Assembly (NCBI RefSeq): GCF_030704535.1
Contig: NC_081808.1
Coordinates: 21,517,501 to 21,581,500 of the forward strand
Length of the DNA stretch: 64,000 nt
Direction of reading: 5' to 3'
Origin: Vitis vinifera
Taxonomy: Eukaryota > Streptophyta > Magnoliopsida > Vitales > Vitaceae
Shown here in pieces: positions 16,577-62,077 of this stretch. A program made the translations under genes and the position numbers. Within the stretch, counting starts at the first letter, position 1, and each line of letters opens with the position of its first letter. The notes under the pieces were generated by a model. The model was not told the DNA's origin, did not search any database, and saw only the letters and a program-made list of their open reading frames with translations.

Positions 16577-17678
16577 ATGGCTCCACCTCAAATTCCAATC
16601 CTGCTTCTCCAGCTCCTATTTCTCTTTTCAGGTAGATGCTAAACTAACAACTATCACTCTGTTTATGGCTGTTTTTCTCCGTTCTTATCTCCCACATTTC
16701 TTTACAACTTGTCCATTGTTCAGGTGCATTTTCAGCGACATTTACGATAGTTAACAAGTGCAGCTACCCAGTGTGGCCGGGTATCTTATCAAACGCTGGA
16801 ACAGCACAGCTCCCCACCACTGGTTTTGCTCTCCAACCTGATGAGTCCAATTCCCTATCCCTCCCTACTGCCTGGTCAGGTCGGTTGTGGGGTAGAACAC
16901 TCTGTAGCGCCGACTCTGCTGGTAAGTTCACTTGTATCACCGGCGACTGCGGCTCCGGTACATTGGAATGCTCTGGTGGCGGTGCCGCCCCACCCGCCAC
17001 CTTAGCAGAGTTCACCCTGAACGGCGCCAATGGCCTCGACTTCTATGATGTCAGCCTGGTGGACGGCTATAACCTCCCCATGTTGGTGGCACCTCAGGGT
17101 GGCACCGGGGGTAACTGTACTATCACCGGTTGCGTCGCTGACCTAAACGCGGCTTGTCCGTCGGAGCTCAAAGTGAGCAGCATCGAAGGCGGTGAGGGGA
17201 GTGAGAGCGTGGCATGCAAAAGCGCGTGTGAGGCGTTTGGGGATGCGCAGTACTGCTGCAGCGGGGCGTACGCGACTCCAGACACGTGTAAGCCCAGTGC
17301 ATATTCTGAGTACTTCAAAAGCGCCTGCCCCCGTGCTTACAGCTACGCCTACGATGATGGTAGCAGCACCTTCACCTGTGCATCTGCCGATTACACCATC
17401 ACTTTCTGCCCTTCTCCTGCCACCAGGTTGATTTGTGATTCCATCCCCCGCCCACCCCTATTCGACCGCCATACATTTTTCCCTTTTTTTTTTTTTTATA
17501 AGAAATACCTAATATTAATCAGTTTATAATCGGATTATGGTGCAGTCAGAAATCGGCGGGAGGGCAGTATCCTCAGGCGATGGAAGTCTCAGCGGCTGCT
17601 GCCAATCGTTTCACGTCATTCAACTCCATCATTGCCGTCGCTGTCGCCACCGTAGCCGCAATTTGGCAATGGCGGTAG
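16577..17678 (+). CDS. Thaumatin-like protein (PR-5 family), likely GPI-anchored
   Basis: Secreted thaumatin-fold protein of the PR-5 superfamily; members bind beta-glucans and some are antifungal. Exons 16577-16631, 16724-17426 and 17546-17678 give 296 residues in phase. An N-terminal hydrophobic signal peptide (about 1-22) is split by the first intron, a classic arrangement for this gene class. The thaumatin domain contains all 16 conserved cysteines, a WPGIL opening motif, and the acidic-cleft region (LAEFTL, then DFYDVSLVDGYNLPM). The third exon adds a tail that ends in a hydrophobic stretch (IIAVAVATVAAIW), as expected for a GPI-anchor signal. Tandem in orientation with the next thaumatin-like gene 4.8 kb downstream. 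If the second intron were read through, the protein would end differently and lack the tail. The family is certain; the anchor is inferred. Confidence 0.93.
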
Positions 17679-22520: not shown

Positions 22521-23718
22521 ATGGGTCAAGTTTCTGCCTTCTCCTCCTCCTCTCCTTCTCTCGTCATCGTCCTCAGTCTTCTTCTCATCTTATTCATTTC
22601 TGAAGGTAAGAGGCCTGCTTTTCCTTGTTTTTGGCTCTGGGTGCTTCTCGCATTTTGAGAATTTTTGTACTAAATGTTACAAAATCTGGTGTCGTGCTTT
22701 TCAGGTGTTTCGGGTTCTACATTTACGTTTCTGAACAGGTGTGACTTCACGGTATGGCCGGGAATTCTAGACAGCGCTGGTAGCCCAAAGCTGGAAACTA
22801 CAGGGTTTGTGTTACCCAAGGGTAGTTCACGTGGCTTCCAAGCTCCGACGGGCTGGTCAGGTCGCTTCTGGGGCAGAACCGGCTGTAATTTTGATGGGTC
22901 GGGCCACGGTACATGCGCCACCGGAGACTGTGGGTCCGGTCAGGTAGAGTGCAACGGCGCTGGAGCTTCCCCGCCGGCGACACTCGCTGAGTTCACTCTC
23001 GGCTCTGGTAGTCAAGACTATTACGACGTCAGTCTCGTAGATGGCTACAATCTGCCAATGATGGTCGAAGGCAGGAGCAAATCGGGTGCTTGCACGTCCA
23101 CCGGGTGCGTCACCGACCTGAATCGCCGGTGCCCGAATGAATTGAAGGTTGAGGGTGGTGAGGCGTGTAAGAGCGCCTGCGAGGCGTTCGGCAGCCCGGA
23201 GTACTGCTGCAGCGGCGCGTACAACACACCGTCGACGTGTAAGCCGTCGGTGTACTCTGAGATATTCAAGTCTGCGTGCCCCAGATCATACAGTTACGCT
23301 TATGATGATGCCACCAGCACTTTCACCTGTAACGGAGCCGATTACACCATCACATTCTGTCCTTCCTCTCCCAGGTAAAACAATTGAATCACTTAAAATC
23401 TTGTGTTAATTTCGACATAAATTTGAACTGGGTCTAAATGAATTTGAAATTTGATCATTCTGCAGCCAAAAATCTTCCAAGGATTCTCCAAGAGAAACGG
23501 GAACAACACCAGATAGTGGGTCAGGGTCAGGGTCAGGGTCAGGGCCAGAATCAGAATCGGCTTTAGCGTCGGCAGAGGGCACGATGCTAGCCAATTCTTG
23601 GTTAGCAAACTTGGCAACCGGTGCCAGTGGTACAGCCAGGAGCCACCCATGTTTAACACTACACTCTGGATTTGTTGTTGCAATCTTCTCATTAGTCCTT
23701 CCTTTTTTGGTAGGGTAG
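22521..23718 (+). CDS. Thaumatin-like protein with Ser-Gly linker and GPI-anchor signal
   Basis: Second PR-5-family gene, with the same architecture as its neighbour. Exons 22521-22605, 22705-23374 and 23466-23718 give 335 residues in phase. The hydrophobic signal peptide is at about 1-28, with intron 1 at its end. The thaumatin domain has 16 cysteines, WPGIL, LAEFTL and the YYDVSLVDGYNLPM acidic region. Exon 3 encodes a Ser/Thr/Pro-rich spacer with four tandem SG units (from a GGGTCA minisatellite at about 23518-23543) and ends in a hydrophobic tail (FVVAIFSLVLPFLVG), typical of a GPI-anchored wall or plasma-membrane protein. If intron 2 is retained, a stop follows two codons after the thaumatin domain, giving a soluble form. 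The start was chosen for the signal peptide; the frame is open upstream. Confidence 0.94.
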
Positions 23719-26499: not shown

Positions 26500-29400
26500 T
26501 TAGTGTGTTATTCTGACCAATAATGGGTAGCAATGATCCACTTCGTAGTTGGGCCAGGAGTCATCACCATTCATGAGTTCTTGATGACGCTTCCAAACTT
26601 CTGTGTCATAGTTTTCGGATATGCTGAAATGCAAGCCACTCTGTTTGATTATATCTAGAAACTTGTCCAATGAATCACCTCTTCTAGGGCTGAGAAATAT
26701 AGCTTCAGAGGGTCCATTTTTCAGTAGGAATTTGACAGTTCGAGCAAGGCCTTTGTGAGATTCCTTGAAGAAAGTGCTGCCAAAATGAAATCAAAGTCAA
26801 GAAATTTGAAAGCAAATAACTTTATCATAAAGATAAAAACATGTCATGTGTTATTGCATGTATATATATTCATGCATTATATACAAGGTATTAAGTGGCT
26901 TCAATCAGCTGGCAAGTAACCTAGGATGTCTACAGGCCTCCAGGATTTTTATTTTTTTTTATAAGCGAGAGCAGAAAATATATTGAAGAAGGCCGAAAGG
27001 CCGCACCGCATACAAGAGGTATACAAAGCAGCCACAAGGCCAAAAAAACAAAAACAGGAACACCTCACCAGCCCTTAGGGGACCGCTACCCACTCCAAGA
27101 AGCCTAGAAGAGAAGAGGACTCCTCTCCCCTATACAACTTAGCCCAACTCCACAGACTACATACAAAAGAATTCTTAAGAGTCTGAATAGCCAAAAGACC
27201 CCCTCTAAAAGCTAACCTATTTCTTTCCTTCCACACCGTCCAAAAAATACATAACGGAATGGTCTTCCATATCTTCTTCCTTTTTTTACCCACAAAAGGG
27301 TCCCGCCAACAGAACAACGCCTCTTTGACCTTCTCTGGAAACACCTACTGAACCCCAAATAAGGCAAAGGCGATTTCCCAAAGGGTCATAACCACTGTAC
27401 AGTGTAAAAGAATGTGATTTACATTTTCCTCTTCACAACCACACAAAAAACAACAATTTGGAAGCTGCCACCCACGCATTTGCAGCCTATCCAACGTGAG
27501 GATTTTTTCCCAAGTAGCCTCCCACGCAAAAAAAGCCACTTTGGTTGGGACCTTATCCACCCAAATATTTTTTTCCGGAAAAACAAGAGGATTAGGGGCT
27601 GCCAGCAGATTGTAAGCCACCTGAATCCGAAAACTGGAAGAATCCCCTCCTTTCCAAAGCACTGAGTCCTCCTCTGGGGTTACCCTGATGTCCCTTAGCA
27701 AAAAGAGCAAATCTTCTATTAACACCAGCTCCCAATCATTAGAATCTCTAACCAATCTGAGATTCCACCCTCCTTGGCCAAGCCTTGGGTCCCACACATC
27801 ATTCACCAATTCATTGCTGCACACTGCCAAGGCAAAAATCTGGGGAAACGCTTGGGACAGCGCTTCGTTGCCGCACCAATGATCAATCCAGAACATGATC
27901 TTAGTCCCCCTCCCCACCTTGAACTTCATGTTATTCCAGCACCAGCTCATCTCCTTTAAAATCTCCTTCCAAACTCCCACTCCAAAGGGCCCCCGAGCTT
28001 CCTTAGATTTCCAACCACAGCCCTCCAACCCATGCTTCACCCCGATTACCTTCTTCCACAAGACATCCTTCTCAATGGCAAATCTCCAAATCCACTTGCC
28101 CAATAAGGCCTTGTTCAATAACCCCATCCTCTTAATACCAAGACCCCCCTTCTCCTTTTGAGTACACACCACCTTCCAATTAATTAAATGGATTTTCCTA
28201 CCCGTGTTTCCCCCTCCCCAAAGAAAATCTCTTTGTAATTTCTCAAGCCTTTTAGCCACTGACTTAGGCATTCTAAAGATGGACATTTGATAAATGGGAA
28301 TGCTAGCTAAGGTACTCTTAATAAGGGTGATTCTCCTGCCCTTAGACAAGTATTGTCTTTTCCACCGGGCAAGTCTTCTCCTCATTCTTTCCTCCACCCC
28401 GTCCCACGTGGACAAGGCCTTGTGCCGGGCCCCAAGGGGCAGCCCCAAGTATTTAACCGGAAAGCTTCCAATTTTACAGCCTAATTCCACCGCCATTTCT
28501 TCAATATTATCAATCTCCCCTACTGGAATCAGCTCACTCTTGGCCAGATTGATCCTAAGCCCAGAAGCTGCCTCAAACCACGCCAAAATCCATCCAAGAT
28601 GAGTTAATTGATCCTTGCTGGCCTCGCAGAAGAGAATAGTGTCGTCTGCAAAGAGCAGATGAGACACCATAATCTCTGCATCCCTTCTACCTTTTAGCCT
28701 ACAACCAGAAATGAAGTTCCCCTGCACTGCCCGCCTAATGAGTGCACTCAGCACTTCCATGCCCAAGATAAAAAGATAAGGAGAAATTGGGTCTCCTTGA
28801 CACAGACCCTTAGAGCTGGAGAAGAAGCCTGTTGGAACCCCGTTAATAAGGATAGAAAATTTTGCCGTTGAAAAACACCACCACATCCATTCCATCCAGC
28901 GCGACCCAAAGCCCATCTTTTTCAAGACCTTCATAAGGAAGCTCCAGTTGATGCTGTTATAGGCTTTCTCAATATCCAATTTGCACACCAGCCCCTTTTC
29001 TTTCCTCTTCTGCCAGTAGTCAACCACCTCATTAGCTATGAGAGAGGCGTCTAGAATTTGTCTCCCCCTCACGAACGCATTCTGATCAGTCGAAACCACC
29101 TTATCTAACACCATTTTCAGCCTATTGGCCAACACTTTGGCCATAAGCTTGTACAGCCCCCCTAGCAGACTGATAGGCCGAAACTCCCCTAGGTCCTCAG
29201 CCCCACCTTTTTTTGGAATGATGACCAAGAAAGTAGCATTTAGACTTTTGGCAAATGACTTCTGATCATAAAATTCCTTGAACAGCTCTACTATCTCCTC
29301 CTTAGCGAAGTCCCAACAAGCTTGCCAAAAGGCCACAGTAAACCCATCCGGGCTTGGGGCCTTATCGCCATTCATATCCATCAGAGCAGAGAATATTTCT

Positions 29401-32400
29401 TCTTCAGTAAAGGGGACCTCCAAAGCTTCAGCTTCACTAAGGTCAAGACTTTTAAGATGCAGCCCCTCTAAGTCGGCTCTCCACCCTGGATCTTCCCTTA
29501 GCTGGTGCTGAAAGGCCTTGACAATCCCCTCCCTCACCTCCTGCTCCTCCACCAATTCCACCCCATTTATTTTAATTATGTCCAAAAAGTTATTTCTCCA
29601 ATGGGCACTAGCCATCTTGTGAAAGAAACCTGTATTCTTATCCCCTTCTCTAAGTCACAGCTCCCTAGACACTTGTCTCCAATGGGCTTCTTCCAAAAGA
29701 ACCCACTTCTTGAATTTCTCCTTAACTTCATTTTTCAGATCCATTTCTCTTTCTGAGAGGTCCCTACCACTTTCCACCTTGTCCCAAAACTCAATTTGTC
29801 GGAGGGTTGAGCTTTTGTTCACTTCCACTTTACCAAAAACATCTCTGTTCCACACTTTAATTTTCTCCTTCATCTCCTTCATTTTAGCAGCCATTCTAAA
29901 ACTAGCCCTTCCTACTCTTGCCCCTCCTTGCCACCATTCCCGAAGGAGCTCCTTAAACCCATCCACCTTGAGCCACATGTTTTCAAACCTGAACGGAGAG
30001 GGTCCCCGGCTCATCCCGCCCCCCTTCAACAAAATGGGGAAGTGATCAGAGGTAGGCCTAGGAAGCCTACACTGAACAGCCCCCCTGAAAATATCTAACC
30101 AACCCTGGGATACCAGGAAGCGATCCAATCTAGCCCAAGTCTGGTTGCTCCTGCCCCCACTCCGAGAGTACACACCCCCCTGCAAAGGGAGATCAATGAG
30201 GGCAAGGTCATCCACCACCTGAGCAAACCTACGCATTGCTCCATTAAGGCTACCCTGCCTGCTCCTATCCCTTTGAGATAAAGTAACATTAAAGTCCCCT
30301 CCTAAACACCAAGGCTCTTCCCAAATTCCCCTTATCGCTCCTAACTCCTCCCACAACTCCTCCCTCTCCTTCCTGTTGCACGGCCCATAAACTCCAGTAA
30401 AAATCCAAACCACTCCATCTTCAACATTCTTCAACCTACACGATATAAAGAAATTACCCACCTCCATCTCCAACAGCTCCAAAGATCTCTTATCCTAGCA
30501 AACCAAAATACCACCCGCTAAGCCTTGGGCTCCCATAACCCCCCAATCGAGAAACCTCCCAGAGCCCAGACTCCTCACCACCCCCTCTGTCATAGTCTGA
30601 ATTTTCGTCTCTGGAATACAAACTAAGTCCGCCCTTTGACTCCTGATCATGGCCTTGATCACTTTCCTTTTAGAGCTATCATTAGCTCCCCGAACATTCC
30701 AACTCACCAACCTTAACTTCATAAAACAACTGGAGACTGGCCCCCTCTTCCTTGCATAATGCCTTTCTGCTTCCTTCCCCCTTCATAATTGATGGAACAA
30801 AGGCATGCAGCAGACAGATAAGGAGAGGTGGAGTGTTGTCTACATGCAAAGTCTTAGACCCACTATGAGTAGCACCATAGAGCCATATCCTTCAACCTTT
30901 TGTATAGAAGTAGATCCTCTAGCATTAAACATGATTTTCTACTTATTTAGAAGTAATCAAGGCATATCATCAAAGGATCCACATTTGATAATTATGTTCA
31001 CTTTCTTATATAAAGTCTAGGGAGAAAAATGATCCATATCTTATGAAAATGGGATCTTCAGAAAGAATGAAAACTTACCAGTCACTTGCAACAATGATGT
31101 CGTAAGTGTCAGAGATATTTGAGATTTCTTCTTGATTCCAGTGCAAGGTCATGGACTTCACTCTGGTATCACCAAATGCTCCACAATTGGCATCAATATT
31201 ATGCTGAATATCTGGATGTTAAGAACCTCCCATCTGAACACAAAGAATTTGAGAAGGTGTTGCAAGATTGTAGACAACATTATTCAATGTTTAAGTCCTG
31301 AGAAAATTTTCAGGGCCCAAATCATACTGAGAAACTTAAGCCTACATGTAGAATAGCATGAAAAAAATGACAAAAAAAAAAAAAACTGGATCCTTCATGT
31401 TATGATAATGTGAATGGGGCAGTTCGATAAGTTGTATGTGCTATTCATTTATTTTTGTACTAATATTTATCTAGTTATTGTGCCCAAAAATCCCCTATTT
31501 ATGTTCCTTGTGTAGCTGAACTACATCATATGTAGTTCATCCTCACAATCACAGTAAGAGTCGATGCAATGAATGCAGTGAACTATTATATATTTTCCAT
31601 GAAAAGCATTAGGTCAATGATAAATAAATAAAAGAACGGAATCTTCATAGATTTTCCCTGCATATTAGCATGCTTAAATCAAGAGGATACAATCAACAAC
31701 TTGAGGATTTCCATCTGATATTACAATTTCTAATGCATCAGTGACTGCTGCAATAACTAATCCAGCTAAGCCATAGCCTGATCCAAGTTCAATAACCTTT
31801 TTAGACCTGGCAAACAAAGGATGCAGGAAACATGACATAGAAAACCAAGCAAAATCATAAGCTAACTACAGGAAAAAATAGATGAGGCTCCTACAAATGG
31901 ATGCTGTCCTTGAAAGAGCAACATAATATTACTTTACAAACCTGAACATGTCTGTGTGTGACAAGCAAAAATAAGCAAGGATATCTTCTGATGGCCAGTG
32001 ACCTATAAAACAACAACAAATTAGGAGACTGGCTAAGATAATGGCCAAGGGTATTAGCAAATCAAAATATGCAAAACCAACATTACAGAGTATCAAGCAC
32101 TGTAAATACCTAACTTGCGATATTATGTAGACCAGAAAACAATCTAAAAGATGAAGAAATTTAATCGAATTAGAATTGTCAATGAAACATCCCCTTTGGT
32201 TCCATGGGTTCCCATGGAAGATGATTTTGGACACCTTATCCAGGAAAAATAATGTCTTTTTGAATAAACCAGATACATCTATTTACTTATTACTTTCTGA
32301 GTTCAGGTTCCAAATAGAAGTATTCCCCCCCACTGAAAAAAAAAAAAAAAATCAGACAACAAAACAGAACAAACAAGCACACAAACAAATTAGGAGACTG

Positions 32401-36486: not shown

Positions 36487-37883
36487 TTCACCCCATGCCT
36501 AAAGCCATAATTTTCCTTTTACTTTTAAAAAATTGGAGAAAACAACTCTTATTTGTTTTTCAAAAATTATTTTCTATATTTTTTTTTATTTTTTGAAATC
36601 GACTACCAAACAGTGTTAGAAATTTTTTAAAAACAATATTATATTTTCAAAAATAAAAATTGTTTTTAAATCACACAAAGGAAACATGCTCTTCTATTTT
36701 TGCTGTCTTTGAAATACTATATTAATTGTAAAAATATTGAGTGGAATTGTTTTAAATTATTTAAATAAAATACACTAGTATTTTCCATTTTTAATATTTA
36801 AACTTTTGTAAATTTATAGTTCATTGTGATAAATATTTTTGTTTTAATTGTAATTTTATTTTTATTTTTATTTTATTATTGATGCCTACTAACAAAATTT
36901 TTATTCAATTTTATTAAAAAAAAGATAAGTGAATTTATATAATATTGGATGTGAAATCATTATTAATTAAGAAATTCAAAATATTGTATTTAACACTTGA
37001 GAAAAATTCTACCATCATTTGTGTCTCATATTATATAATAAAAAAATTATAATATATTCATTTTAAAGATATTTTTATCAAATTAAAATAATAATTTTTT
37101 TTTTAGAATTTTATTTAATAGTATCAAGTAAAATGGTATTTTAAGAAATAATTATTTGACTTATGAAAATATATATATATATATATTAAAATTTTTTTAA
37201 ATTAATGAATTATAAAAATTGGGATTCCTATTTTTATGTATTTTCAACTTTGTGAATTAAAATCCACTTTTCCCTATAAATTTTTTAATTTCAATGGTTG
37301 ATTGCATTTGCAACATAACATTAGATTTCAATTAAAAATAATTTTCAACTCTCATTATAAATTTATTAATTTTTCTTAAAGCTCAAAGCTTTAATTTTTG
37401 AATTATACAAACACTAACAAACAAATTTTTTTTTATACGATTTGTAATGATTCACACTCAATCATTTAATCCTCACAGTTTCAAAATACATCTATATAAG
37501 ATTAAGATGAGTCTCTACATATATAATGTTATGAATTTTCATCCTTATCCGATGTGGGATGTTACAAACATTTCCCATGGAACTGTATTGATTGTTGTAA
37601 CTTGTAATCAATAAATGTCATTTTTCTTTTTTTTTAGCATGATAATGAGAAAAATTCAAGAGTCATCCCCAAATGCTGCCCTCGATCAGTAAAAACGAAG
37701 TCATCAAACTAACGAAATTTCCAAAAATTGGATGCATAAAATCTATTCACATTACTAATCAATCTCAAATTTGGATAAAATCATTATGAACTAATTTATA
37801 TATTCACACTCAATGAAGAAGAATCATGAACCCCAAATTTCAGCCTCCTAATAATATGAACAACTCACTACTACAAGCCTCAA
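36487..37883. other. AT-rich intergenic DNA between CAMKMT and the OPT gene
   Basis: Very AT-rich with MITE-like phrases near 36530-36700. It includes one TRIM-like LTR remnant, listed separately. No gene is visible. Confidence 0.6.
37443..37566 (-). mobile_element. Solo LTR remnant of a TRIM-type element
   Basis: A segment of about 124 bp that parallels the LTRs of the TRIM array at 54943-56085: it begins TGTAATGA and ends TCCGATGTGGGATGTTACA, with GTCTCTACATATATA inside. It is an old, diverged fossil with no internal domain attached, and no target duplication is evident. Confidence 0.55.
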
Positions 37884-47482: not shown

Positions 47483-47904
47483 CTTCCAATTCCCAGTTCT
47501 TCTCACGGTCATAGCCTCCACGCTTTCCTGCCCTAGCGTCCTTATTGCATTATCTCATAGAAAATTAATTTATATAAAAATAAATAAAATGATAAATATT
47601 TTTTAAATAAATAAATAAATATGTTATATTGACTTTTTTTAACCTAACTTTTTTTTTTATCTAATTTATTTATAGTAAATAAAACTTACAAGAGTATATT
47701 CTTTATTTCCATATTATTGAATTACTAATAAAGTTATGAAATAAATAGATATATATATTTTAGATTTATTAAAATAATGTTTATTTTATTAATTAAATAT
47801 AAAGAATTTAGATTTTTTTCCTTATTTTTTTATAAATAATATTTATCATGCTCATAAAGTCAATATGTTCCCAAGAAAACAAAATTAATATTATCTAATA
47901 TCTG
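47483..47904. other. AT-rich spacer
   Basis: Short upstream region of the methyltransferase followed by very AT-rich DNA up to the foldback element. No gene is visible. Confidence 0.6.
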
Positions 47905-49623
47905 GAGTTTAAGACCAAAATAATATATTTATAAAAAAAAATGATAAGAATAGTATCCATTTGAAAATATTTGTCAAAGTAGTCTTTTTTATCCACGTAA
48001 GCATCCACATGGATTTTAAGTGTAAAGAACCACCGTTGGTGACTGTGGTTTTAGAACTTACAAAAATTTCCTTAAAACCACAGTTACAAACTGTGGTTTT
48101 ATAATTTCTCTTAGAACCACAGTTATTAACTGCGGTTTTAAAATAAGTTTCCTTAAAACCACAGTTACAAACTGTGGTTTTACAATTTCCTAACTTTATA
48201 ATTATTTTTAATTCGTTCCCATTTTAATGGTGTTATAATTTTAATATTATTTTTAAAATATTTTTTTTATCAAAACAACCATAAAACCACGGTTAGTAAC
48301 TGTGGTTTTACTAATGGTGTTGTAATTCAAATTAGTGATGTTATGTTATTCACATGTTTCCTTGATAATTTAAACAAATAAAACTCAAATGCATCCTAAA
48401 GTCTAAATGAAAGAAATTCTAACTAAATAAATTATTACAACCATTACCTATTTTTCTTTCATATAATTAAAAAATTATACATTTTAACCAAGACATAAGT
48501 TCAAATCATACTTAATAATAAATAACCTAAAATCATAATCACTGGCATTAATTTTCATATGAAAAGATAAAATTTTAAAATAATATAAACAATTTCTTTA
48601 GTTATTTAAAAATTTAAAAATAATATGAATAAATAATTTTCTTTAGTTCATATGTGAAAATATTTGTAAAACAAATAAATATTTTATTTACTATAAATAT
48701 ATAAATTTTTATGGGAATGCATGTAGACCAAATTATTTTCTCAAATTTTCAAGGAAAATATGAAAAAATAAAGATAAAATATATATATATATATATATAT
48801 ATAATTTTTTTTTTAAACAGTCGTAACAAAAAAATTTGTGAAAAGCAAAGTTCTAAAATCCCATACTTTTTTATACATGAGTCCCCTTAAAAATATTTGT
48901 GAAAATTACAACATAATTGTAATTTTGATAAAAAAATATTTTAAAAATAATATTAAAATTACAACACCATTAAAATATATGCGGATTGAAAATAACTGTA
49001 AAACCACAGTTACTAACTGTGGTTTTATGGGTATTTTGATAAAAAAATATTTTAAAAATAATATTAAAATTACAACACCATTAAAATAGATGTGGATTGA
49101 AAATAATTGTAAAACCACAGTTACTAACTGTGGTTTTATAGTTATTTTGATAAAAATTATTTTAAAAATAATATTAAAATTACAACACCATTAGTAAAAC
49201 CATAGTTACTAACTGTGGTTTTATGGTTGTTTTGATAAAAAAAATATTTTAAAAATAATATTAAAATTATAACACCATTAAAATGAGGACGGATTAAAAA
49301 TAATTGTAAAACCACAATTAGTAACTGTGGTTTTAAGGGAAATTGTAAAACCACAGTTTGTAACTGTGGTTTTAAGGAAACTTCTTTTAAAACCGCAGTT
49401 AGTAACTGTGGTTCTAAGAGAAATTATAAAACCACAGTTTGTAACTGTGGTTTTAAGGAAATTTTTGTAAATACTAAAACCACAGTCACCAACGGTGGTT
49501 CTTTACACTTAAAATCCATGTGGATGCTTACGTGGATAAAGAAGACTACTTTGACAAATATTTTCAAATGGATACTATTCTTATCATTTTTTTTTACAAA
49601 TATATTATTTTGGTCTTAAACTC
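47905..49623. mobile_element. Foldback (long-TIR) Mutator-like non-autonomous element
   Basis: 1719 bp with long inverted arms: left about 47905-48332, right about 49179-49623. The outer 285 bp of each arm are nearly identical (a few mismatches), starting GAGTTTAAGACC. Immediately outside is a perfect 9-bp direct repeat, TAATATCTG (47896-47904 and 49624-49632). A 9-bp target duplication is the hallmark of Mutator superfamily transposition. Inside the arms are about 13 copies of a 27-bp self-palindrome (AAACCACAGTTANTAACTG followed by TGGTTTT). The right half also has units of about 111 bp starting at 48923, 49034 and 49145, and a shorter one at 49230. There is no transposase frame. High arm identity and a perfect target repeat suggest a fairly recent insertion. 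Confidence 0.88.
48025..49502. repeat. About 13 dispersed copies of a 27-bp palindrome inside the foldback element
   Basis: Left copies begin near 48026, 48074, 48113, 48153 and 48283. Right copies begin near 48991, 49110, 49194, 49306, 49346, 49388, 49428 and 49474. The core is ACCACAGTT-3-AACTGTGGT with one- or two-base variants (ACCGCAGTT, ACCACGGTT, ACCGTTGGTGACTGTGGT). Every unit can form its own hairpin, in addition to the large hairpin formed by the two arms. The spacers are not unique sequences of constant length, so this is not a CRISPR array. Confidence 0.85.
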
Positions 49624-49815
49624 TAATATCTGAAATAATAATAATAATAAAATTATTAAGTTTCTAAGAAAATTAATGCTATAAATGGATGGGTAGAGGG
49701 AGGAAGAATAGTTTTCTGTGATATTGATATTTTCTTTAGAGCTGAATTTATCGGGCGAAAGCTGTGTGCTAGGGTTGTGGTGGGTTTTGGGTTTTGGGTT
49801 TTGAATCAGACATTT

Positions 49816-52106
49816 ATGTCGACCGCTGCAGCCAAAGCCCTTGCTGGAATTCTAGTGTTTGTTTCTTACTCTGTTCGCCTCACCTACGCTATTGTTCACC
49901 TCAAATCCTTGTCCGCTTCCTTCATTGACGCTCCCGCCAGATTTGGTATGGAACTTTTAGGGTTTTTTTTTTTTTTCTTGTCTGTTTGGTTCCCGAGAAA
50001 ACAGAGATTAGAGTGAAGAAAAGGAAATCTCTCTTTTCTGAAACAATGAAATGTTTGAGATTCAAATTTTCAATTTTTTTTTTCTTTTCTTGCGTTTTCT
50101 CAGCGACCGGCAGAGTTTCCTTTGCGACGTTCCTGTATCTATTGCTGCTACGTCTGTTGCCGTGGACCAATATTTCGAAATAAACTGGGACTGAGTTTGT
50201 TGTTATGTTTTTGCAGCTGTTAGTGTTAACAGCACTGGAATATGCGGAGCTTTGCATTTGGCAGATCCTCTCGAGGCATGTTCTTCTCTGCTCAACAGGT
50301 TTCGATCCCAAGAAATTGATACAATAAAATTTGCTCTGATAATTAGGGGTAAATGTGCTTTTGAGGATAAAGTCCGAAATGCTCAAGATGCTGGCTTTCA
50401 TGCTGTAATCGTGTATGATGATCGAGATAAGGGGAATTTGGTTTCCAGTGAGTCATCTTTTGCCTTGAAATATTATTTCTCTGAATCCATGGCATTAGAT
50501 GTTCATAGCTTAGTTCTTAGAGAGAGAGAGTAAAGGAACTTTCAAAATTTTGACAGATGATAAACTCAGTGAATTTTGAACTAAATTTTTTTTTTTTTCC
50601 AGCAATATTCTTTACTTCTTCAGTCTCAAACTTTGGCACATTCAATCAATCATTAATGACAAAATCACAAGGACAAAGAAAATTGAATACACAGATTCAT
50701 AAATCAAAGAGTGTTTTTTTGCCTAGTTTCTTGGGCAATGTTTGTATGCTTCGTGTGTACTGTTCTCGCCCTCCTAGGCATTTCTAATATAAGCTCTTAC
50801 TTACCTATCAAAAAAAATAAATCAAAGATTGTTTTAACTACACCACATGAGAGAATACCTCTTAGTCTGGAGCTCTGGATATGCATTCTCCTTATCCCCT
50901 CACAGGCTTTCAAGGCTGTTACAATGATATTTAATCCTCTATATGACCTTTCAATTTCAGTTTCCAGTTTAAGTTTATCTGTAATTACTTAAGACTAATG
51001 ATTTTTTAATTTCATTGCTACTGTTTGCAGCATAATGCAATCATTTTACTACTGCTGTTTAATGTGCTTCTGCATTTATTTTCCATTATTTATTCTTTTG
51101 TTCAGCTACAATAATATCTGCCATTCATTGGTTGTAGTGATAGGAAACTCCCAGGGCATATGGGTGCCTGCAGTTTTTGTTTCTAAGGCAGCTGGTGAAA
51201 CCCTGAAGATATATGCTCAAGGACAAGAAGGGGAATGCTGCATTATAAACCCTTCATTCCCAGAATCTGCCTGGACTGTGATGGTAATATCTTTCATCTC
51301 ACTTCTTGTCATAGCAACTGTCGTGTTAACGTTCTTCCTCACTCGCAACCGCCGGTTGAATCAACGAGGAACAAATCCCCACCGTCCTAGTGTGGATGCC
51401 AAGTTGGTGGAAGTTCTTCCCTGCTTTACATTCAGTCAAGCATGTGAGTGCCGCGTAGGAGATACATGTTCCATCTGTCTTGAGGACTACAAAGATGGTG
51501 AACGGCTCAGAGTTCTCCCCTGCCAACATGGTAGGACTTCACTACTCAAATTTATGCTTTCATTTCATGAAATTCTTAATGCAATCGAGCACTAATTGCG
51601 TAGCATTTTCATGATTAGTGCATTTGTTTAAAAGGTGGAACCTAATATATATATATATATCACATGGTCACTGATTTACTGAGTTCATAGTTTCTGGGAT
51701 GTTTGCTGAAGTTCCCCTTACAAGTAGAACAGAAGGAGGAACTGGAAAAAGATTCTTCCTTAATCCATGAACCAATGGTGGTGTCACTGAAACGCCATCC
51801 TTGTCCCCACACAAGAATGTAGATGGTTAGCATCATAGAATGCAATTTAATTTCTACCTAAAGATGTCTCCTAGATGAAGCCATCAAAACATGGATGTCG
51901 GTCCTTTAGCTATATTCCTGTCCTTTTACCCTAATTTATCATGTATTAATTAATTATGTTTAAATTTACCTGCAGAATTTCACGCGAGCTGTGTGGACTC
52001 ATGGCTTACAAAGTGGGGGACTTTCTGCCCGGTTTGTAAATATGATTTGAGTACTGATGCCACATGTTCTAAAGTGAATGAGAGGAGAACATTTTTATTT
52101 TTTTAG
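49816..52106 (+). CDS. RMR1: PA-domain, transmembrane RING-H2 protein (RMR family)
   Basis: Type I membrane protein of the receptor-homology-TM-RING class, implicated in sorting to protein storage vacuoles; the RING suggests E3 ubiquitin-ligase activity. Exons 49816-49945, 50217-50447, 51138-51530 and 51976-52106 give 294 residues in phase. Signal peptide at about 1-25; lumenal protease-associated domain at about 40-150 (IIRGKCAFEDKVRNAQDAGF motif region); one hydrophobic helix at about 166-189. The cytosolic RING-H2 spans about 231-275, with CSICLEDY, then C-x-H-x2-H and CPVCK. The C-terminal tail after the RING is short. An in-frame codon for Met lies 13 codons upstream (49777); the inner ATG leaves the hydrophobic signal nearer the N-terminus. 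Neighbouring genes fit the Arabidopsis RMR1 (At5g66160) locus. Confidence 0.93.
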
Positions 52107-53174: not shown

Positions 53175-54151
53175 ATGGATTCTGAGAAAAGGTGACTTTC
53201 TTTTTACACCAGATAAATCTAACTGCTGAATTCTATACGGATGTTTTGATTTCTTCCTTCTTTTGTCTTCTGCTCTTTTGCAGCCCAGCAACAGAATTTA
53301 TCAGCGCTGATGCTCATGAAGCTAAGGATCTTATTGCCTCCGGCTATAGATACCTAGATGTTAGGTTCGTGGTTGTATACTTGTACTGGTGTATTTTGAA
53401 TTGGGTCTCGTTTGGATTTTCTGGGTCTGCTCTTAATTTTGGAACCGAATTCTTATCATAGGATGGTGGAAGATTTCAACAAAGGCCATGTGGATGTTGA
53501 GAGCGTCTTTAACATCGCTTACTTCATCATGACCCCAGAGGGTAACTACTGCCTCCCTTTTTCTTTTTCCCGCTTGTGTTGCAGACATTTTAGAAAGATG
53601 ATATGGCTTTGGGTATCAGGTAGGGTGAAAAATCCTCAATTTTTGGAGCAGGTTTTGTCGGTTTGCAGCAAGGAAGATGGTCTCATTGTGGTACTCTTTT
53701 TTGGCATTTTCAACTTTGTTATACATAGTCGCATCAATTAGAAACTAATATCAAATAGAGTATGAACCGAGTGAATATATTTCATTAAGTAATGTGAATT
53801 ATTCAATGTTGGTGAAGGGCTGTGGAACCGGGGACAGGTCTCGTCTTGCAACGGTTGATCTTCTTAATGCTGTAAGTTTGTTCTTACCTTTTGCTCTGCA
53901 GATTTTAAATTGGATATAGCCTGATTTCATATTTGAGCATACTTTTTGCCACATTCTTGAAGTCATACTCCTCCATTAAAAAATAATAATAATAATAAAA
54001 TTCCTCTAAAAATTTTCAACCTTAATTAGCTAATTTAGCTCATTAAAAACATATGTTGAATAAACTTCAGGATTTCAAACACGTAAGGAACATGGGAGGA
54101 GGATATCGATCCTGGCACGAGGCTGGATTGGGCGTGAAGAAAGAGGCTTGA
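53175..54151 (+). CDS. STR18: Single-domain rhodanese (thiosulfate sulfurtransferase), copy A
   Basis: Sulfurtransferase that moves sulfane sulfur from a donor such as thiosulfate or 3-mercaptopyruvate to a thiol via a persulfide on its active cysteine. Six exons: 53175-53191, 53284-53364, 53462-53541, 53620-53690, 53818-53871, 54071-54151. They give 127 residues with GT-AG borders in phase. The active-site loop CGTGDR (C85-R90) fits the family pattern CxxGxR. The rhodanese start motif YRYLDVR and the end motif NMGGGYRSW are present. There is no transit peptide, so a cytosolic location is likely. The exon structure is the same as in copies B and C, but the sequence is clearly diverged from both. 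Class (STR16/18) is inferred from size; STR18 is favoured by the adjacent RMR gene. Confidence 0.92.
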
Positions 54152-54942
54152 TGGGTTAATTTGGTTACTCCAAGTGTCTTCAATTTGTATCTTTGTTTAT
54201 AACTAGAGTTGTTTGAGAGTGACCTTTCATTGCTAAGTATAAAATTGCTCTAGCCATTGGATAAGTGGAATGATGCTTCAATAATTGGCTTGACATAATG
54301 TGCATTTATGTGATGGGTGTGTTCCACTTCTTTAATTGAACAGCATCATACTTTTAGTTTTATATGATCCAGGACATTGACCAATGAGCCAAGAGAAGAA
54401 TCCAAGGGGATTTCAGTACTATATATTATTTCATTTTCATTTTCGTTATTATTATCACGGCACATTAGAATGAAAACAAATAATCATTCTAATTTTAAAT
54501 TTCTAGGTTTATCCAAACACTAAAAATAAAATCATCAAATTTATTTTCTATTCCCGCATACCAAACACCCTCTAAGAAAGTATATATATCCATCAAAACT
54601 TGATCCTCCAATTCTCAAAATCTTTCCTAAGAGTAACTTTAACTTTCAATAAAAGTAAAAAAACATGATCCTGAAACTTTAATAAAGAGCTTCAAAGAAT
54701 CCATTGAAAAGTATAAGGGATTGGTTTTTCTATGTTATAGCCTTGTAGTCATCCATGTGAACAATTTTAACTCACCAACCAAGCCGTCAATCTGTAGGAA
54801 AAAACATTTCTTAAGATTAAGCTCATTGCATCACCTTCCTACCCACTCATTGCATTTGAAGTTGATAAACTCTTAGACCAACTTTATCACACTCAAGATA
54901 ATGCTTTACCCAATTTTCCTTCATGTAGATTTTTAGTGTTTT
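54152..54942. other. Spacer with a MITE-like fragment
   Basis: 3' UTR of rhodanese copy A, then AT-rich DNA. The segment near 54425-54575 resembles the right part of the Tourist-like element at 43239-44110 and ends ACCAAACACCCTCTAAG. No gene. Confidence 0.5.
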
Positions 54943-56085
54943 TGTAAAAACCCGCACCCAACCATGTAGATATTGTCCGCTTTGGGTCCAAGGGGGCCCT
55001 CGCGGCTTTAAAACGCGTCTACTTGATTAAGAGGAGCCTCTACATATATAGCGTCAAGAACATTCTCTCCTATCCGATGTGGGATATCACAAACACCCCC
55101 CCCCCCCATGCAGACACAACGTCCTCGTTGTGTTCCATGGGATTGCTGAGCCAAACAAACAAACACCCCTTACGAAGCCAAACAAACCCCTACACCTGGG
55201 TCAGGGATCGACTCTGATATTATTTGTAACGACCCGCACCCAATCATGTAGATATTGTCCACTTTGGGTCCAAGGGGGCCCTCATGACTTTAAAACACGT
55301 TTACTTGGTTAAGAAGAGTCTCTACATATATAGCGTCAAGAACATTCTCTCATATGCGATGTGGGACATCACAAACACCCCCTCCCCCCATGCAGACACA
55401 ACGTCCTCGTTATGTCCCATGAGATTACGGGGTCAAACAAACAAACACCTCTTGGCCAAACAAACCCCCACACCGGGGTCGGGGATCGGCTTTGATACCA
55501 TTTATAACGACCCGCTCCCAACTGTGTAGATATTGTCCGCTTTAGGCCCAATGGAGCCCTCATGACTTTAAAACCTATCTATTTGGTTAAGAGAAGCCTC
55601 TACATATATAGCGCCAGGAACTTTCCCCCCTATCCGATGATAGGGGAGAATGTTTGTGATGTCCCACATCGGATAGGGGAGAATGTTCCTGACGCTATAT
55701 ATGTAGAGACTCCTCTTAACCAAGTAGACGCGTTTTAAAGCTATGAGGGCCCCGTTAGGCCCAAAGCGGACAATATCAACATGGTTGGGTGCGGGTCGTT
55801 ACAAATGGTATCAAAGTCGATCCATGACCCCGATGTGGGAGTTTGTTTGGTCTCATAAGGGGTGTTTGTCTGTTTGGCCCCCCAATCTCATGGGACACAA
55901 CGAGGACATTGTGTCGCATGGGGGGGAAGGGGTGTTTGTGATGTCCCACATCAGATAGGGGAGAATGTTCTTGACGCTATATATGTAGAGACTCCTCTTA
56001 ATCAAGTAGATGCGTTTTAAAGCCGTGAAAGCTCCCTTGGGCCCAAAGCGGACAATATCTACATGGTTGGGTGCAGGTCGTTATA
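54943..56085. mobile_element. Compound TRIM (LTR kin) array, partly inverted
   Basis: Fossil terminal-repeat retrotransposon in miniature; it encodes no protein. Five LTR units of about 149 bp (TGTGATGT...GTTACA type): reverse-oriented at 54943-55091, 55225-55373 and 55503-55638 (shortened), then forward-oriented at 55655-55803 and 55937-56085. Internal domains of about 130 bp lie between units 1-2, 2-3 and 4-5. The primer-binding site complementary to initiator Met-tRNA (TGGTATC...) follows the LTR at about 55806. The two orientations meet head to head near 55640. Flanking 5 bp (54938-54942 and 56086-56090) match at four of five positions, as if inserted as one unit. Moderately old; non-autonomous by design. 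Confidence 0.85.
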
Positions 56086-57011
56086 GTTTCAATAAGACTT
56101 TCGTCAATTAACCTTCTTATCATATTCTTAAGCAATTATTTGGTGATAGAAGCTCATTTTAACACATCTTTTCTCTTTCTCTAAGTCGAAAAAGTAGAGG
56201 AAAAGTGAGTTTTGATTCACTAATATGAAAATATAAAAAAAAAAAAGGATCTCAAAATTTTTAAATTAATATTATCTCCATCTATTTAAAAATAATTTTT
56301 TTGAAATATATATACTTTTTAATGAATCATTTTATTATTTCTTAAAATACTCATTTTATTTTTCATGTCGTCAATATCAATTTACAACTAAATTCCTCCA
56401 CATAAATATTTTCCTTCATTTTAATATTATTATTATTATTATTATTATGAATATTTTAAGGGAATAATTAAATGGCTCATTACAAAATACATTTATTTCA
56501 AATTATTTTTAAATAAAAAAACTAATACTGATTAAAAAAATTTGGTTCTTTTTTCCATATATTTTCATATTAATGAATAATTCTCATGTACAAAATTATC
56601 ATTTTATGACTTCAAAAATATTAATAAAATAAAAACTTATTTTTAATAAAAACAAGTTAGATTATCATTTTATCATTTTCTATTTTAAAATTTAATTGAT
56701 TTTTTATTTAGATTTTATTAAAATATCTTTCAATAGAGTTCAAGTAATATTTTATTAGTTTTAATTTTAAAATTTTTATTTCAATTTTTTTTTAGAATAT
56801 TTGAGAAAAAAATTAAAAAGAAAAACAATAAGAAAAAGGAAGAAAAGAAAATTTTGTTTGGTATAGAGTCCTTTGCGGTGCCGAAAGGTTAAAGGGTAAG
56901 CCGGCCGTGCCCTGCTGTCATCGTATTTCCTTTTTTTTTTTTTCCGCCCAGCGAAGCCCCTCAGTTTCTACCCTGTATTATTTCTAATTAAAATATAATC
57001 TTTTTTTTTTT
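56086..57011. other. AT-rich spacer
   Basis: Low-complexity AT-rich DNA including a TTA microsatellite near 56427-56447 and an A/G-rich stretch near 56800-56850. No gene is visible. Confidence 0.6.
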
Positions 57012-58118
57012 TGTAAATATTGATGAAGAAAAGGGCAATTTCGGGAGAATAAAAACTCTGTTTTTCTTCGTAAAGCCGTCCATAGAAACAGACTCAGATA
57101 TTCATTCTGCGAACCAGAAACAGCAGGACACATCGCTTCCATATTCATCCGGTTTTCCTTCTCCAGAAACCCTAAGATATAGGCCCCTACTCTCTACCTC
57201 ATGGCCTCTCCTAGGTGTGGTTCTTGTTTGAGCCATATTTTTTCTATATAGCTGCGAATTTCTATATATTCACATGGGTGTTCTTTGGGCTGTTGTCCGT
57301 CGTTGGTTTCAGTTTCTTTTCTTTGTCTTCTTTTGTGTTGCAGCTCTGCAACAGAAGTCGTCACCATTGATGTTCATGCAGCTAAGGAGCTCACCAATTC
57401 AGGCTACCGTTATCTTGATGTCAGGTGGATTAATCGCTTCTCTTTATGAATTGGTTTGTCTTTAAAATTTCTGGGTTGGGTTTTGTTTTGATTGTGGAAC
57501 TTGAATTGGATTCATAGGACGGTTGAAGAGTTCAAGAAAGGCCATGCCGATGTTGAGAACATTCTGAACATCCCTTACCTCTTCACCACCCCTGAGGGTA
57601 CGTACATAATCTCAGGTTCTGTTTGCTGGTTTGTTTGAGATATTAATATATCCTGTACTGGATCAAGAACATCAGCAAAGATGATATGGATGTGGGTATG
57701 GGTTTCAGAAAGGCTGAAAATTCCTGAATTCTTGGAGCAGGTTCAGTCTGCTTGCAGCAAGGAAGATCATCTCGTCGTGGTAATTTTTCATTTGATTTCC
57801 GGATTGAATCATAACAAATATAATCTTGATGAATTTTCTGAAATTGTTTATTTATTCTCAATGAATGGATGTCTAGGTGGGGTGAGATCCCTTGCAGCCG
57901 CCTCTGTTCTTGTCAATGCTGTAACTTCATCTTCTACTTTCTTTTCTTTTCTTTTTTGTTTTTGAATAATTTTCTTTCTAGAAAAGAGATGCATAGAAAA
58001 TTTGGGGTGGCAGGGTTTCAAGGATGTGAAGGACATGGGAGGAGGCTATGAGGCATGGGTGGAAACTGGACTTACAGTCACCAAACCAAAAGAAGAAGAG
58101 AAGTGATTGGATGCTTCA
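57012..58118 (+). repeat. Left arm of the rhodanese inverted duplication
   Basis: Pairs in reverse complement with 58690-59833. Similarity starts at the shared phrase TGTAAATATTGATGAA, runs through promoter, exons and introns of the two rhodanese copies, and fades just past the stop codons. Spacer between arms is about 570 bp. The two arms differ by scattered substitutions and a few indels, including about 30 extra bases upstream of copy C. Confidence 0.85.
57201..58106 (+). pseudogene. Rhodanese copy B, splice acceptor lost
   Basis: Same six-exon plan as copy C: 57201-57214, 57344-57424, 57518-57597, 57709-57779, 57867-57920, 58014-58106. The coding segments are open and in phase (131 codons if joined), with YRYLDVR and an active-site loop CLGGVR that still fits CxxGxR. 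However, the base pair in front of exon 5 is AT (57865-57866) where copies A and C have AG, so intron 4 has no canonical acceptor. The next AG (57873-57874) lies inside the exon, removes the catalytic Cys and leads to an early stop. No other defect is seen, so loss is recent or a non-canonical acceptor is used. Calling it a pseudogene is an inference. Confidence 0.7.
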
Positions 58119-58689
58119 CTGTAAAGCTAGACCTTTGCCTATGCATTAATTCTTGGTTGTATGTTCTCCACCAATCAAGTATCACATTTCTTCTCGTCTC
58201 CGCCAGCTTCCTCCTCATACGGTGGATAAGCTTTTTAAATTAATGAGAAATTTTGAGCCCTTAAAACCCAATGACATAGTTGGCCTATGTTTGTTTCCTG
58301 AGAAAATGTCAGAGAAATAAAACAAAAAGAAAAATTAGAAAGAAAGAAAGAAAAAATGGAGAAAAAAAAAGGGATTTGAAGGTAATAAATCATTTTTACT
58401 TATTTTTATTAAATAATTTTAAATACATTTAATCAAAATATAAAAAAAATTAATTAAATTTTAGCTCTGGTGAATTTTACCACTTCCACCAAGTATAAGA
58501 CCTTGAACAGGCCTAACAAACTATCTCGCCGTAAGTGTACTTGAACTTCCAAATTCAACACAAGGTCTTATTAACATGCCCTAACCATCTCAGTGGGGCT
58601 CAAAATGTCTTATTAACTTAACAAGGTCATCCACCATGGGTGGAGGTTGACACTAACAATATAAAAGAGGAGACAGATCAGAATGTTTG

Positions 58690-59833
58690 ATAAGCAACCA
58701 ATCACAGCTCCTCTTTTGGTTTCGTGGCTACAAGCCCATTCTGCACCCACGCCAGATACCCTCCTCCGATGTCCTTCACATCCTTGAAACCCTGCCATTT
58801 CATTCACCCACCCTCAAATTTTCCATCTCTTTTTCTATATTCTAAATTATAAAAGAAGGAAATTTATTCAAGAAAAAGTGAAAGATGAACTTACAGCACT
58901 GACAAGAACAGAGGTGGCCGCAAGGGATCTCACCCCACTTTGACAGCCCTTCATTGAGAATAATAAATAAACAATTTCAGAAAATTCATCAACTTATGAT
59001 TCAATCTGGAAATCAAATGAAAAATTACCACGATGAGATGGTCTTCCTTGCTACAAGCAAACTGAACCTGCTCCAAGAATTCAGGATTTTTCACCCTTCC
59101 TGAAATCCACACCCACACCCATATCATCTTTACTGATGTTCTTGATCCAGGACAGAATATATTAATATCTCAAACAAACCAGAAAACAGAACCTGAGATT
59201 ATGTACGTACCCTCAGGGGTGGTGAAGAGGTAAGGGATGTTCAGAATGTTCTCCACATCGGCATGGCCTTTCTTGAACTCTTCAACCGTCCTATGAATCC
59301 AATTCAAGTTCCAAAATCAAAACAAAACCCAACCCAGAAATTTTAAAGACAAACCAATTCATAAAGAGAAGCGATTAATCCACCTGACATCAAGATAACG
59401 GTAGCCTGAATTGATGAGATCCTTAGCTGCGTGAACATCAATGGTGACGACCTCTGTTGCTGAGCTACAAGACAAAAGAAGGAACAGAAGAAGAAACTGA
59501 AATCGACAACGGAACACAGCCCAAAGAACACCCATGGCCTTGTGAATATATAGAAATTCGCAGCTATATAGAAAATGTATGGCGCAAACAAGAACCAGAC
59601 CTCTGAGAGTCCATGAGGTAGAGAGTAGGGGGCTTATATCTAAGGGAGAAGCTTGTGGGCTGTGAGATCCAGTGGGTTTTTGGAGGAGGAAAACCAGATG
59701 AATATTGAAACAATGTGTCCTGCGGTTTTGGGTTTGCGGGCTGAGTCACTGGGTCTTTTTCTATGGATAACTTTATAAAGGAAAACAGAGTTTTACTCTC
59801 CCGAAATTACCCTTTCTTTCATCAATATTTACA
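58690..59833 (-). repeat. Right arm of the rhodanese inverted duplication
   Basis: Reverse-complement partner of 57012-58118. It contains rhodanese copy C with about 200 bp of upstream sequence that is also shared with copy B, so the promoter was duplicated together with the gene. Confidence 0.85.
58702..59614 (-). CDS. STR18: Single-domain rhodanese (thiosulfate sulfurtransferase), copy C
   Basis: Intact member of the pair. Exons, high to low: 59614-59601, 59464-59384, 59290-59211, 59099-59029, 58948-58895, 58791-58702. They give 129 residues, GT-AG throughout and in phase. The sequence has SGYRYLDVRTVEEF, PYLFTTPEGRV, the active-site loop CQSGVR (C84-R89, pattern CxxGxR) and GFKDVKDIGGGY. 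The sequence context around the active site is closer to the common plant form (CQSG) than copies A or B. No targeting peptide is visible. It faces copy B tail to tail, with about 600 bp between stop codons. Function is as for copy A; whether the paralogues differ in substrate or expression cannot be read here. The symbol is a class assignment. Confidence 0.92.
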
Positions 59834-62077
59834 AATGGGTTATTTTTTAGGCCGTGAATCCATTGCTAAATTTAGGCATCTTTTATAGTTGTTTTTTTAA
59901 AAAATAAAATAAAATATATGCAACAATTTAAAAACATAAAACAGTTTTTTATTTTAAAAAACATGAAACGGTTTTGTTTTTAAAAATAAAAAAATAAGAT
60001 GTTTTCAAAGGAATATCTTAATTGTTTTTAATTATTTTCATTTATTTTTTAAGTATTATTTAAAAAATAATTATATAAATATGAAGAATAATTAAAAATA
60101 AAGTATTACATATAAAATTTATTTTAAAAATATATTTAAAATATAAAAATTAGTTAAAATTTTTTATATTCTCAAATAGACATTTGTGTTTTATAAAACA
60201 TTAGAAAATAGGTTTTTTAAAATGTTTTTTAAATTTGATTTCAAAAATAGTTACCAAATAGGGTATTAGTTTGTATCATGTAAAAATAATGGATAGAAAA
60301 TGAGGGAGATCCGTTAGCTAGAAAAAAATGGAAATGCCAAAGAGAGTAGGCTTACTTTTTTACTCTTTGGGCATGAAAAGGACACATACTATTTAGATTT
60401 CATTTTTTGTTTTTTTTAACCCATAAAGTATTTGTGAAGAAAAAAATGGGCATTTGGTAAAATTTAGAAAATGTTTTTAAAAAATTGAAAAATCATTCAC
60501 AATGTTTGATGAAGAAAACACTTTTAATAAAAGTACTTAAGGAGATAAACACTATCAAACGCAACGTTAAAGTCGATTTAACAAAACTTTTAGAAAGCAC
60601 TTTTAATATAAAAAAAATTAAACATTTAATAAAATTTTAAAAACACTTTATATTGTTGGAAATTCATGTAGAAACCATTGACCGATGATTCTTCTAAGCA
60701 TTTATAAGGAAAAATATTTTGATTAAAAGCACTTCAAATAAAAAAATACTCTCAAATACACTTTTAAACTATTTAAATTTATTTGTATATTATTTTTTAT
60801 TTTTACAATAAAAATATAGAATGAAAAGATGTTTAGAGACTTAGAGGGTGTTTATTTTCTTTAACTTTTTTCTAAAAGTAATTTATTTTTAAACTTTATG
60901 TTGTTTATTTTTCTATTTTTTCATAACTTATTATAAAAATTTTGCTAAATATAAAAAATCAAAATATTTAACATTTTCTAAATGGAAAATGCAACATATT
61001 GATTTTTTTTAATACTTAATATAAATAAAATATTGTAAAAACAAACAATTTAATACTTAATATTATTAAGCATTAAAGTTATAATTAGAGTTAAGTAAAA
61101 AAAACAAACACCACATTAAATTGAAATATGGTAATTTTAAAAATTACTTACAAAAATTGAGAAAACAAAAAAAAATTACAGCCTTAGATTTTAAAATTTG
61201 TGAATGTGATTTTTAAATGCTGAAGCTAAAATATATGCTTTTTATACAAGAAATTTTACCTTTTAATGTAAATTTTATTATTATTTTCACTTTTTTTTAA
61301 GTGAAAAATATATCCACACCAATTTTAAAATTCCATATCAATTTTTTAATTAATATATATTGTATTTTGTATTTTTAAAATTAATAGTAAATTCTTTTGA
61401 GACTTACTTTAAAAGGCTAATGATTTTTAAAAGCTAATTAAAACAAATTAGTAAGTTTGATTTTAAAATCTTCAAAAGTTATTTTTAAACATATAGGACA
61501 AATTCATATTTTTTGTTACTATATTATATATAAAAGGTATTATTATTTTTAAAATACCTTCCAATTTTTAACTTTAAAAATAGAAAATAGAAAATACATT
61601 CAAACAAACACTAAGTAATTTAAAGTAGATTTTTAGAAAATCTAACCATACTTTTTTTTACTCATGATAGGATCAAATTTTAAGGTTTCTTTTCATTAAA
61701 ATATGATTTATAAGGATGGATATGGAAATGTTCCAATGGAAAATGTAGTACCTATGATACCAAAGGTAAAACCCACACAAGAAAAATATAGTACCTAAAG
61801 AATGAAAATGTAGTATCTATATATATAAATATCACTAAATCTACTAAGATGAGAATGAGATTACTAAATATAGGAATCATCAAGCCGATATGACATACCA
61901 AAGATTGCCCTTATACCATAAAAATGTAGTGCTTATACACCTTGTATAACTAAATGTCATGCTTATCTAAAATGGTCATGACACCATGAGTTTTATTAAA
62001 TGTTTTTTAAACTAGATTGATTATTGAACTATAAAAGCTATTGTTTATGGTTTGATAGTTAAACCATGATCAAACTG

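Follow-up and report, generated by a model that had tools for sequence, protein, structure and literature searches.

The 64-kb window (the whole stretch of grapevine DNA that was analysed) contains a repeat-rich element lying between two divergent genes. On its right, an ATG at 49816 opens a gene that had been labelled RMR by a sequence-only reading. This label fits what the downstream frames contain: a PA domain above the Pfam cut-off in the frame at 50195–50533, zf-RING_11 above and zf-RING_2 below the cut-off in the frame at 51002–51595, and a further RING piece below the cut-off in the frame at 51954–52106. The gene on the left starts from a minus-strand ATG at 47344 and had been called a methyltransferase. 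The only Pfam match bearing on that name is a sub-threshold one to RsmF-N (E 0.038; 14.9 bits, cut-off 34): one frame and two further frames gave no Pfam hit, and a PDB search of one frame returned no match. The element had been placed about 190 bp from the RMR start codon and 0.56 kb from the methyltransferase, in good agreement with the 183 bp and 551 bp we find between the flanking 9-bp duplications and the respective ATGs. Outside the element but upstream of the RMR ATG, a TATAAA motif (a motif match only) is present at 49680–49685 on the plus strand, and the right-hand duplication ends 47 bp before it. A promoter scan of 49600–49830 gave 1 site against 0.9 in shuffled sequence, the scan being of bacterial type and uninformative for a plant. 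Judging from its position, an effect of the element on both flanking promoters is possible.

The element itself spans 47905–49623 (1,719 bp, 22% GC). As claimed earlier, it is bracketed by a perfect 9-bp repeat (9/9 bases), with TAATATCTG at 47896–47904 on the left and again at 49624–49632 on the right; we refer to these copies as the target-site duplication (TSD). The position of the boundary is sharply defined: when it is offset by one or two bases, the flanking match falls from 9/9 to three or one. The ends are symmetric (GAGTTT...AAACTC) and the first 26 bp are inverted-identical. A shared 9-mer was found in 4 of 87,120 left/right position pairs of the flanks (the true pair not among them), in 57 of 2,000,000 random pairs of the window (rate 2.85e-5) and in 4 of 39,999 other boundary pairs within about 100 bp of the boundaries. 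From these three counts, any one boundary pair has a chance of about 3e-5 to 1e-4 of showing a 9-bp match. With either strand counted, the window has one further copy of the 9-mer, its third, at 51112. Since the match falls at the exact boundary, is accompanied by inverted ends and is rare among other pairs, we take the observation to be real.

Both sides of the element are formed by long arms (TIRs). The left arm (47905–48332, plus strand, 428 bp) consists of a 120-bp end followed by five 29-bp palindromes, and the right arm (49173–49623, minus strand, 451 bp) is an inverted copy of it with one palindrome that is absent from the left. The sequence-only reading had given the arms as about 430–445 bp; long inverted arms are indeed present, but they are unequal. 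Its statement that the outer ~285 bp are nearly identical was accurate, as 47905–48190 and 49338–49623 form 286 nt of 98% complementarity with six substitutions. Further in, 48195–48332 and 49173–49310 are 94% complementary over 138 nt. When the whole arms are aligned, there are 12 substitutions in 423 bases (10 of the 12 are transitions), and the inner 137 aligned bases, which surround 23 bp of gaps, carry six of the substitutions. These 23 bp lie in three pieces in and beside the palindrome at 49307–49335 (compared stretch 49311–49337), which the right arm keeps and most of which the left arm lacks (at about 48191–48195). This is the pattern that a hairpin-prompted deletion might give. On the right side, arm-related repeats run inward beyond the arm to about 48922, and the right repeat region (48922–49623) measures 702 bp. 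Folded as RNA, the element reached -795 kcal/mol, while 20 shuffled versions averaged -276 kcal/mol; this is as expected from its long inverted arms.

The 29-bp palindromes are all close to TAAAACCACAGTTANTAACTGTGGTTTTA. At a threshold of ≤7 mismatches we found 13 of them, 11 of which are within two mismatches of the consensus; five are on the left (48025–48310, starting at 48025, 48073, 48112, 48154 and 48282) and eight on the right (48999–49503, starting at 48999, 49110, 49195, 49307, 49346, 49388, 49427 and 49475). At the same threshold, none was found outside the element in the 64-kb window. Measured from start to start, they are 39–48 bp apart in the outer parts and 85–128 bp apart in the inner parts, with a step of 717 bp over the centre. 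Tandem Repeats Finder reported units of 39, 42, 81, 85 and 111 bp among 20 overlapping rows. The 111-bp unit makes up an inner tandem array on the right side (48922–49172, minus strand), in which the first two copies (48922–49143) are 95% alike, and a third copy at 49230–49340 is 85% alike to the first. This tandem duplication is confined to the right; the left has a single related stretch, inverted, at 48195–48311. A foldback element is recognised by TIRs made of internal repeats that differ in number from side to side, and both features are present here, with 5 versus 8 palindromes and units of 39–42 and 111 bp. The element also contains 16 CAGTTA/TAACTG sites, whereas 300 shuffled sequences averaged 1.06 and never exceeded 6; the enrichment is mostly due to the palindromes. 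We take the CAGTTA/TAACTG core to be a MYB site.

Comparison of individual units gives some indication of how the arms came about. Palindromes 1–4 match position by position across the arms (0, 0, 1 and 0 mismatches), and palindromes at different positions show 0 to 7 differences, the zero coming from units 2 and 4, which are identical. Because of this positional match, the outer palindromes were probably already in place when the arms were last copied or homogenised. The fifth left palindrome fits the pattern less cleanly, with 2 differences from its arm partner (49195) and 1 from the inner right units (49110 and 48999). The right-hand 111-bp duplication and the left-hand palindrome loss probably took place after the last arm copying. 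A similar pattern is described for Galileo, where tandem repeats lie inside the TIRs and their number is unequal between the two sides (PMC3573991). No extra conservation of the palindromes was detected between the arms (3/145 substitutions inside versus 9/278 outside, p 0.76) or when 111-bp copies were compared in three further tests (p 0.32, 1.0 and 1.0); gapped columns were left out of all four tests. Likewise, no paired changes preserving the hairpins were noticed by eye in the palindrome units compared. As none of the four tests (p 0.32 to 1.0) revealed a difference, they lend no support to purifying selection on the palindromes. We think it unlikely that the palindromes are being kept as a series of sites for protein binding, whether by transposase or by host MYB-type factors; if they were, the insertion would have brought a preformed regulatory array into the interval between two divergent genes.

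Outside the arms, the interior (48333–48921, 17.8% GC) includes an (AT)n tract at 48779–48803 and gave no Pfam match above the cut-off. The element had been described as non-coding, which is borne out at the Pfam level: all 16 ORFs of ≥45 aa that overlap it were without a match above the cut-off. In one Pfam batch, five of 10 ORFs had hits at E 0.018–0.42, all below the cut-off and none of them to a transposase. Autonomous members are required to carry a MURA-type transposase. Since no transposase family was found in any of the 16 ORFs, this is at most a non-autonomous Mutator-like member.

We consider it very probable that this is a Mutator-like element of the non-autonomous kind whose long TIRs are composite (foldback), the superfamily being assigned from TSD and TIR length only. 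The 9-bp duplication had been put forward earlier as the accepted sign of Mutator-superfamily insertion, and the literature agrees that such a TSD and long TIRs mark Mutator-like elements: a survey describes MULE TSDs of 8–11 bp and TIRs of 14–500 bp (PMC6446971), and grapevine MULE TSDs, when found, are reported to be always 9 nt (PMC2528002). Against the expectation for a MULE (a TSD of 8–11 bp, usually 9, and long TIRs), we observe a TSD matching at 9/9 bases and TIRs of 428 and 451 bp in all, 286 bp of them at 98%; against that for a hAT element (an 8-bp TSD and a short TIR), we observe a 9-bp TSD and arms of >400 bp. The insertion 183 bp 5' of an ATG is in line with the insertion of MULEs near genes (PMC4486113, PMC6446971). 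Long-armed, non-coding foldback forms had been called uncommon. They are a minority, as Table 4 of PMC2528002 gives TIRs of >400 bp for 2 of 18 Mutavine families (Mutavine-12 and Mutavine-7, both with 9-bp TSDs), but they are not new and their rarity was somewhat overstated. Multiple-TIR MULEs are described in tomato, rice, maize and Arabidopsis (PMC3310237) and foldback-type MULEs in Medicago (PMC4486113), nematodes (PMC3169594) and Aedes (PMC5225508); Drosophila Foldback4 is the subject of PMC2955051. Because foldback and long-TIR MULEs have already been described, the element is a fresh example of a kind known in both plants and animals.

Within the Mutator-like reading, the element could be a deletion derivative of Mutavine-12 (MuDR-12_VV) or Mutavine-7 (MuDR-7_VV). 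According to PMC2528002, Mutavine-12 has TIRs of 416–441 bp, a 9-bp TSD and 62 deleted copies, and Mutavine-7 has a TIR of 710 bp and a 9-bp TSD; the arms here (428 and 451 bp) resemble the former and the right repeat region (702 bp) the latter. The full Mutavine-12 element is about 10 kb (PMC2528002) versus 1,719 bp here. As these comparisons are by lengths alone they provide a lead only, and we regard the derivation as possible but doubtful. An origin in another superfamily (hAT-, P- or Merlin-type), with the ninth matching base arising by chance, appears improbable. TSDs of these types are about 8 bp. Foldback TIRs did arise in several superfamilies, Galileo having a P-type transposase (PMC3169594, PMC3573991), but here the 9-bp match coincides with perfectly symmetric GAGTTT ends and an 8-bp duplication would need a fortuitous base; moreover, the high-copy hAT families of grapevine are listed with TIRs of 8–23 bp (PMC2528002). 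Finally, although the window does contain inverted repeats unlike MULEs (e.g. 57010–59835), a local inverted duplication with no transposon insertion is very hard to credit, as the arm ends would have to coincide exactly with a fortuitous 9-bp match, for which the chance is about 3e-5 to 1e-4.

A second copy of the element was not found by BLAST within the 64-kb window, where matches outside the locus were ≤57 bp. The inverted repeats at 54941–56085 and 57010–59835 were considered as sister elements and set aside, as neither had a BLAST match to the element. Exact scans with element DNA patterns gave 0 matches in IMG/VR (four patterns; viral and non-plant) and in GTDB genomes (two patterns; bacterial and archaeal, non-plant), collections that are uninformative on copy number. 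A literature search with five sequence strings from the element also gave no match.

Among described systems, Muta1 of Aedes aegypti (PMC5225508) is likewise a MULE, with TSDs of 8–9 bp, and its TIR has a comparable layout in which subterminal tandem repeats come after a short terminal motif. Its authors class it as a type 2 foldback, and it has more than 300 putative non-autonomous derivatives whose repeat numbers vary. The Muta1 TIR is 145 bp with nine 12-bp repeats (PMC5225508), whereas the present element has 29-bp palindromes spaced at 39–128 bp in arms of 428 and 451 bp. Mutavine-12, with many deleted copies known (PMC2528002), is comparable in TIR length and TSD. Tm1 of root-knot nematodes (PMC3169594) is a Mutator/foldback element with composite TIRs, side-unequal repeat numbers and TSDs of 8–10, mostly 9 bp, all of which recall the element; it differs in having 13–15-bp repeats and asymmetric 7-bp terminal motifs, where the ends here are symmetric. 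MuTAnT of Medicago has long modular TIRs that form a foldback and a 9-nt TSD (PMC4486113), but 90% of its members are 200–300 bp and the family targets (TA)n, unlike the element, with which it was compared by description. Arabidopsis FARE, as named in PMC4486113, is similar in its long modular TIRs forming a foldback.

In the mechanism that we propose for the Mutator-like element, a transposase of the MURA type, supplied from another place in the genome, would have bound the TIRs, reading either the terminal 120 bp or the palindromes. It would then have cut the element from a donor site and inserted it here. The 9-bp duplication points to an insertion with a 9-bp stagger, which would have been filled in as TAATATCTG on both sides. 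The arms would have grown by tandem duplication of 39–42-bp palindrome-bearing units before their last copying or homogenisation, with the 111-bp duplication on the right side only coming later. A proposal noted in PMC3573991 is that secondary sites for the transposase lie in the tandem repeats of TIRs; the extra subrepeats of this element may likewise act as accessory sites, although the conservation test gave this no support.

The element leaves knowledge of the Mutator superfamily unchanged. This copy is well preserved, its ends are symmetric and its 9-bp duplication is intact, so it can seed a search for its family and an autonomous partner and can be used for presence/absence typing between cultivars. 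The regularity of its palindrome array also makes it a neat illustration of the way in which tandem duplication may lengthen foldback TIRs.

Several other repeats and genes were observed in the window. In the region at 54941–56085, one sequence is repeated as clustered direct and inverted copies of about 140–430 bp, whose edges carry stretches such as TGTGATGTCCCACATC and GGGTCGTTACA; a related fragment lies at 37500–37576. The cluster looks like rearranged LTR pieces, presumably TRIM-like. The long inverted pair at 57010–59835 (974 bp at 87% and 163 bp at 82%) resembles a gene with exons (by eye, a rhodanese-like one) that has been duplicated in inverted orientation, and a stretch related to it is present at 53594–53700. 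On the minus strand, 27345–30494 holds a LINE-type retrotransposon with reverse transcriptase, zf-RVT and an endonuclease-type domain, the domains being spread over two adjacent ORFs with a stop between them; in IMG/VR its protein gave 9 pattern matches, 0/9 of which were confirmed as a relative. Finally, two thaumatin-like ORFs in the same orientation (16648–17529 and 22674–23378) are 75% alike over 210 bp and are probably duplicates, and a PDB search with a thaumatin-like ORF matched two chains at E up to 1e-60.
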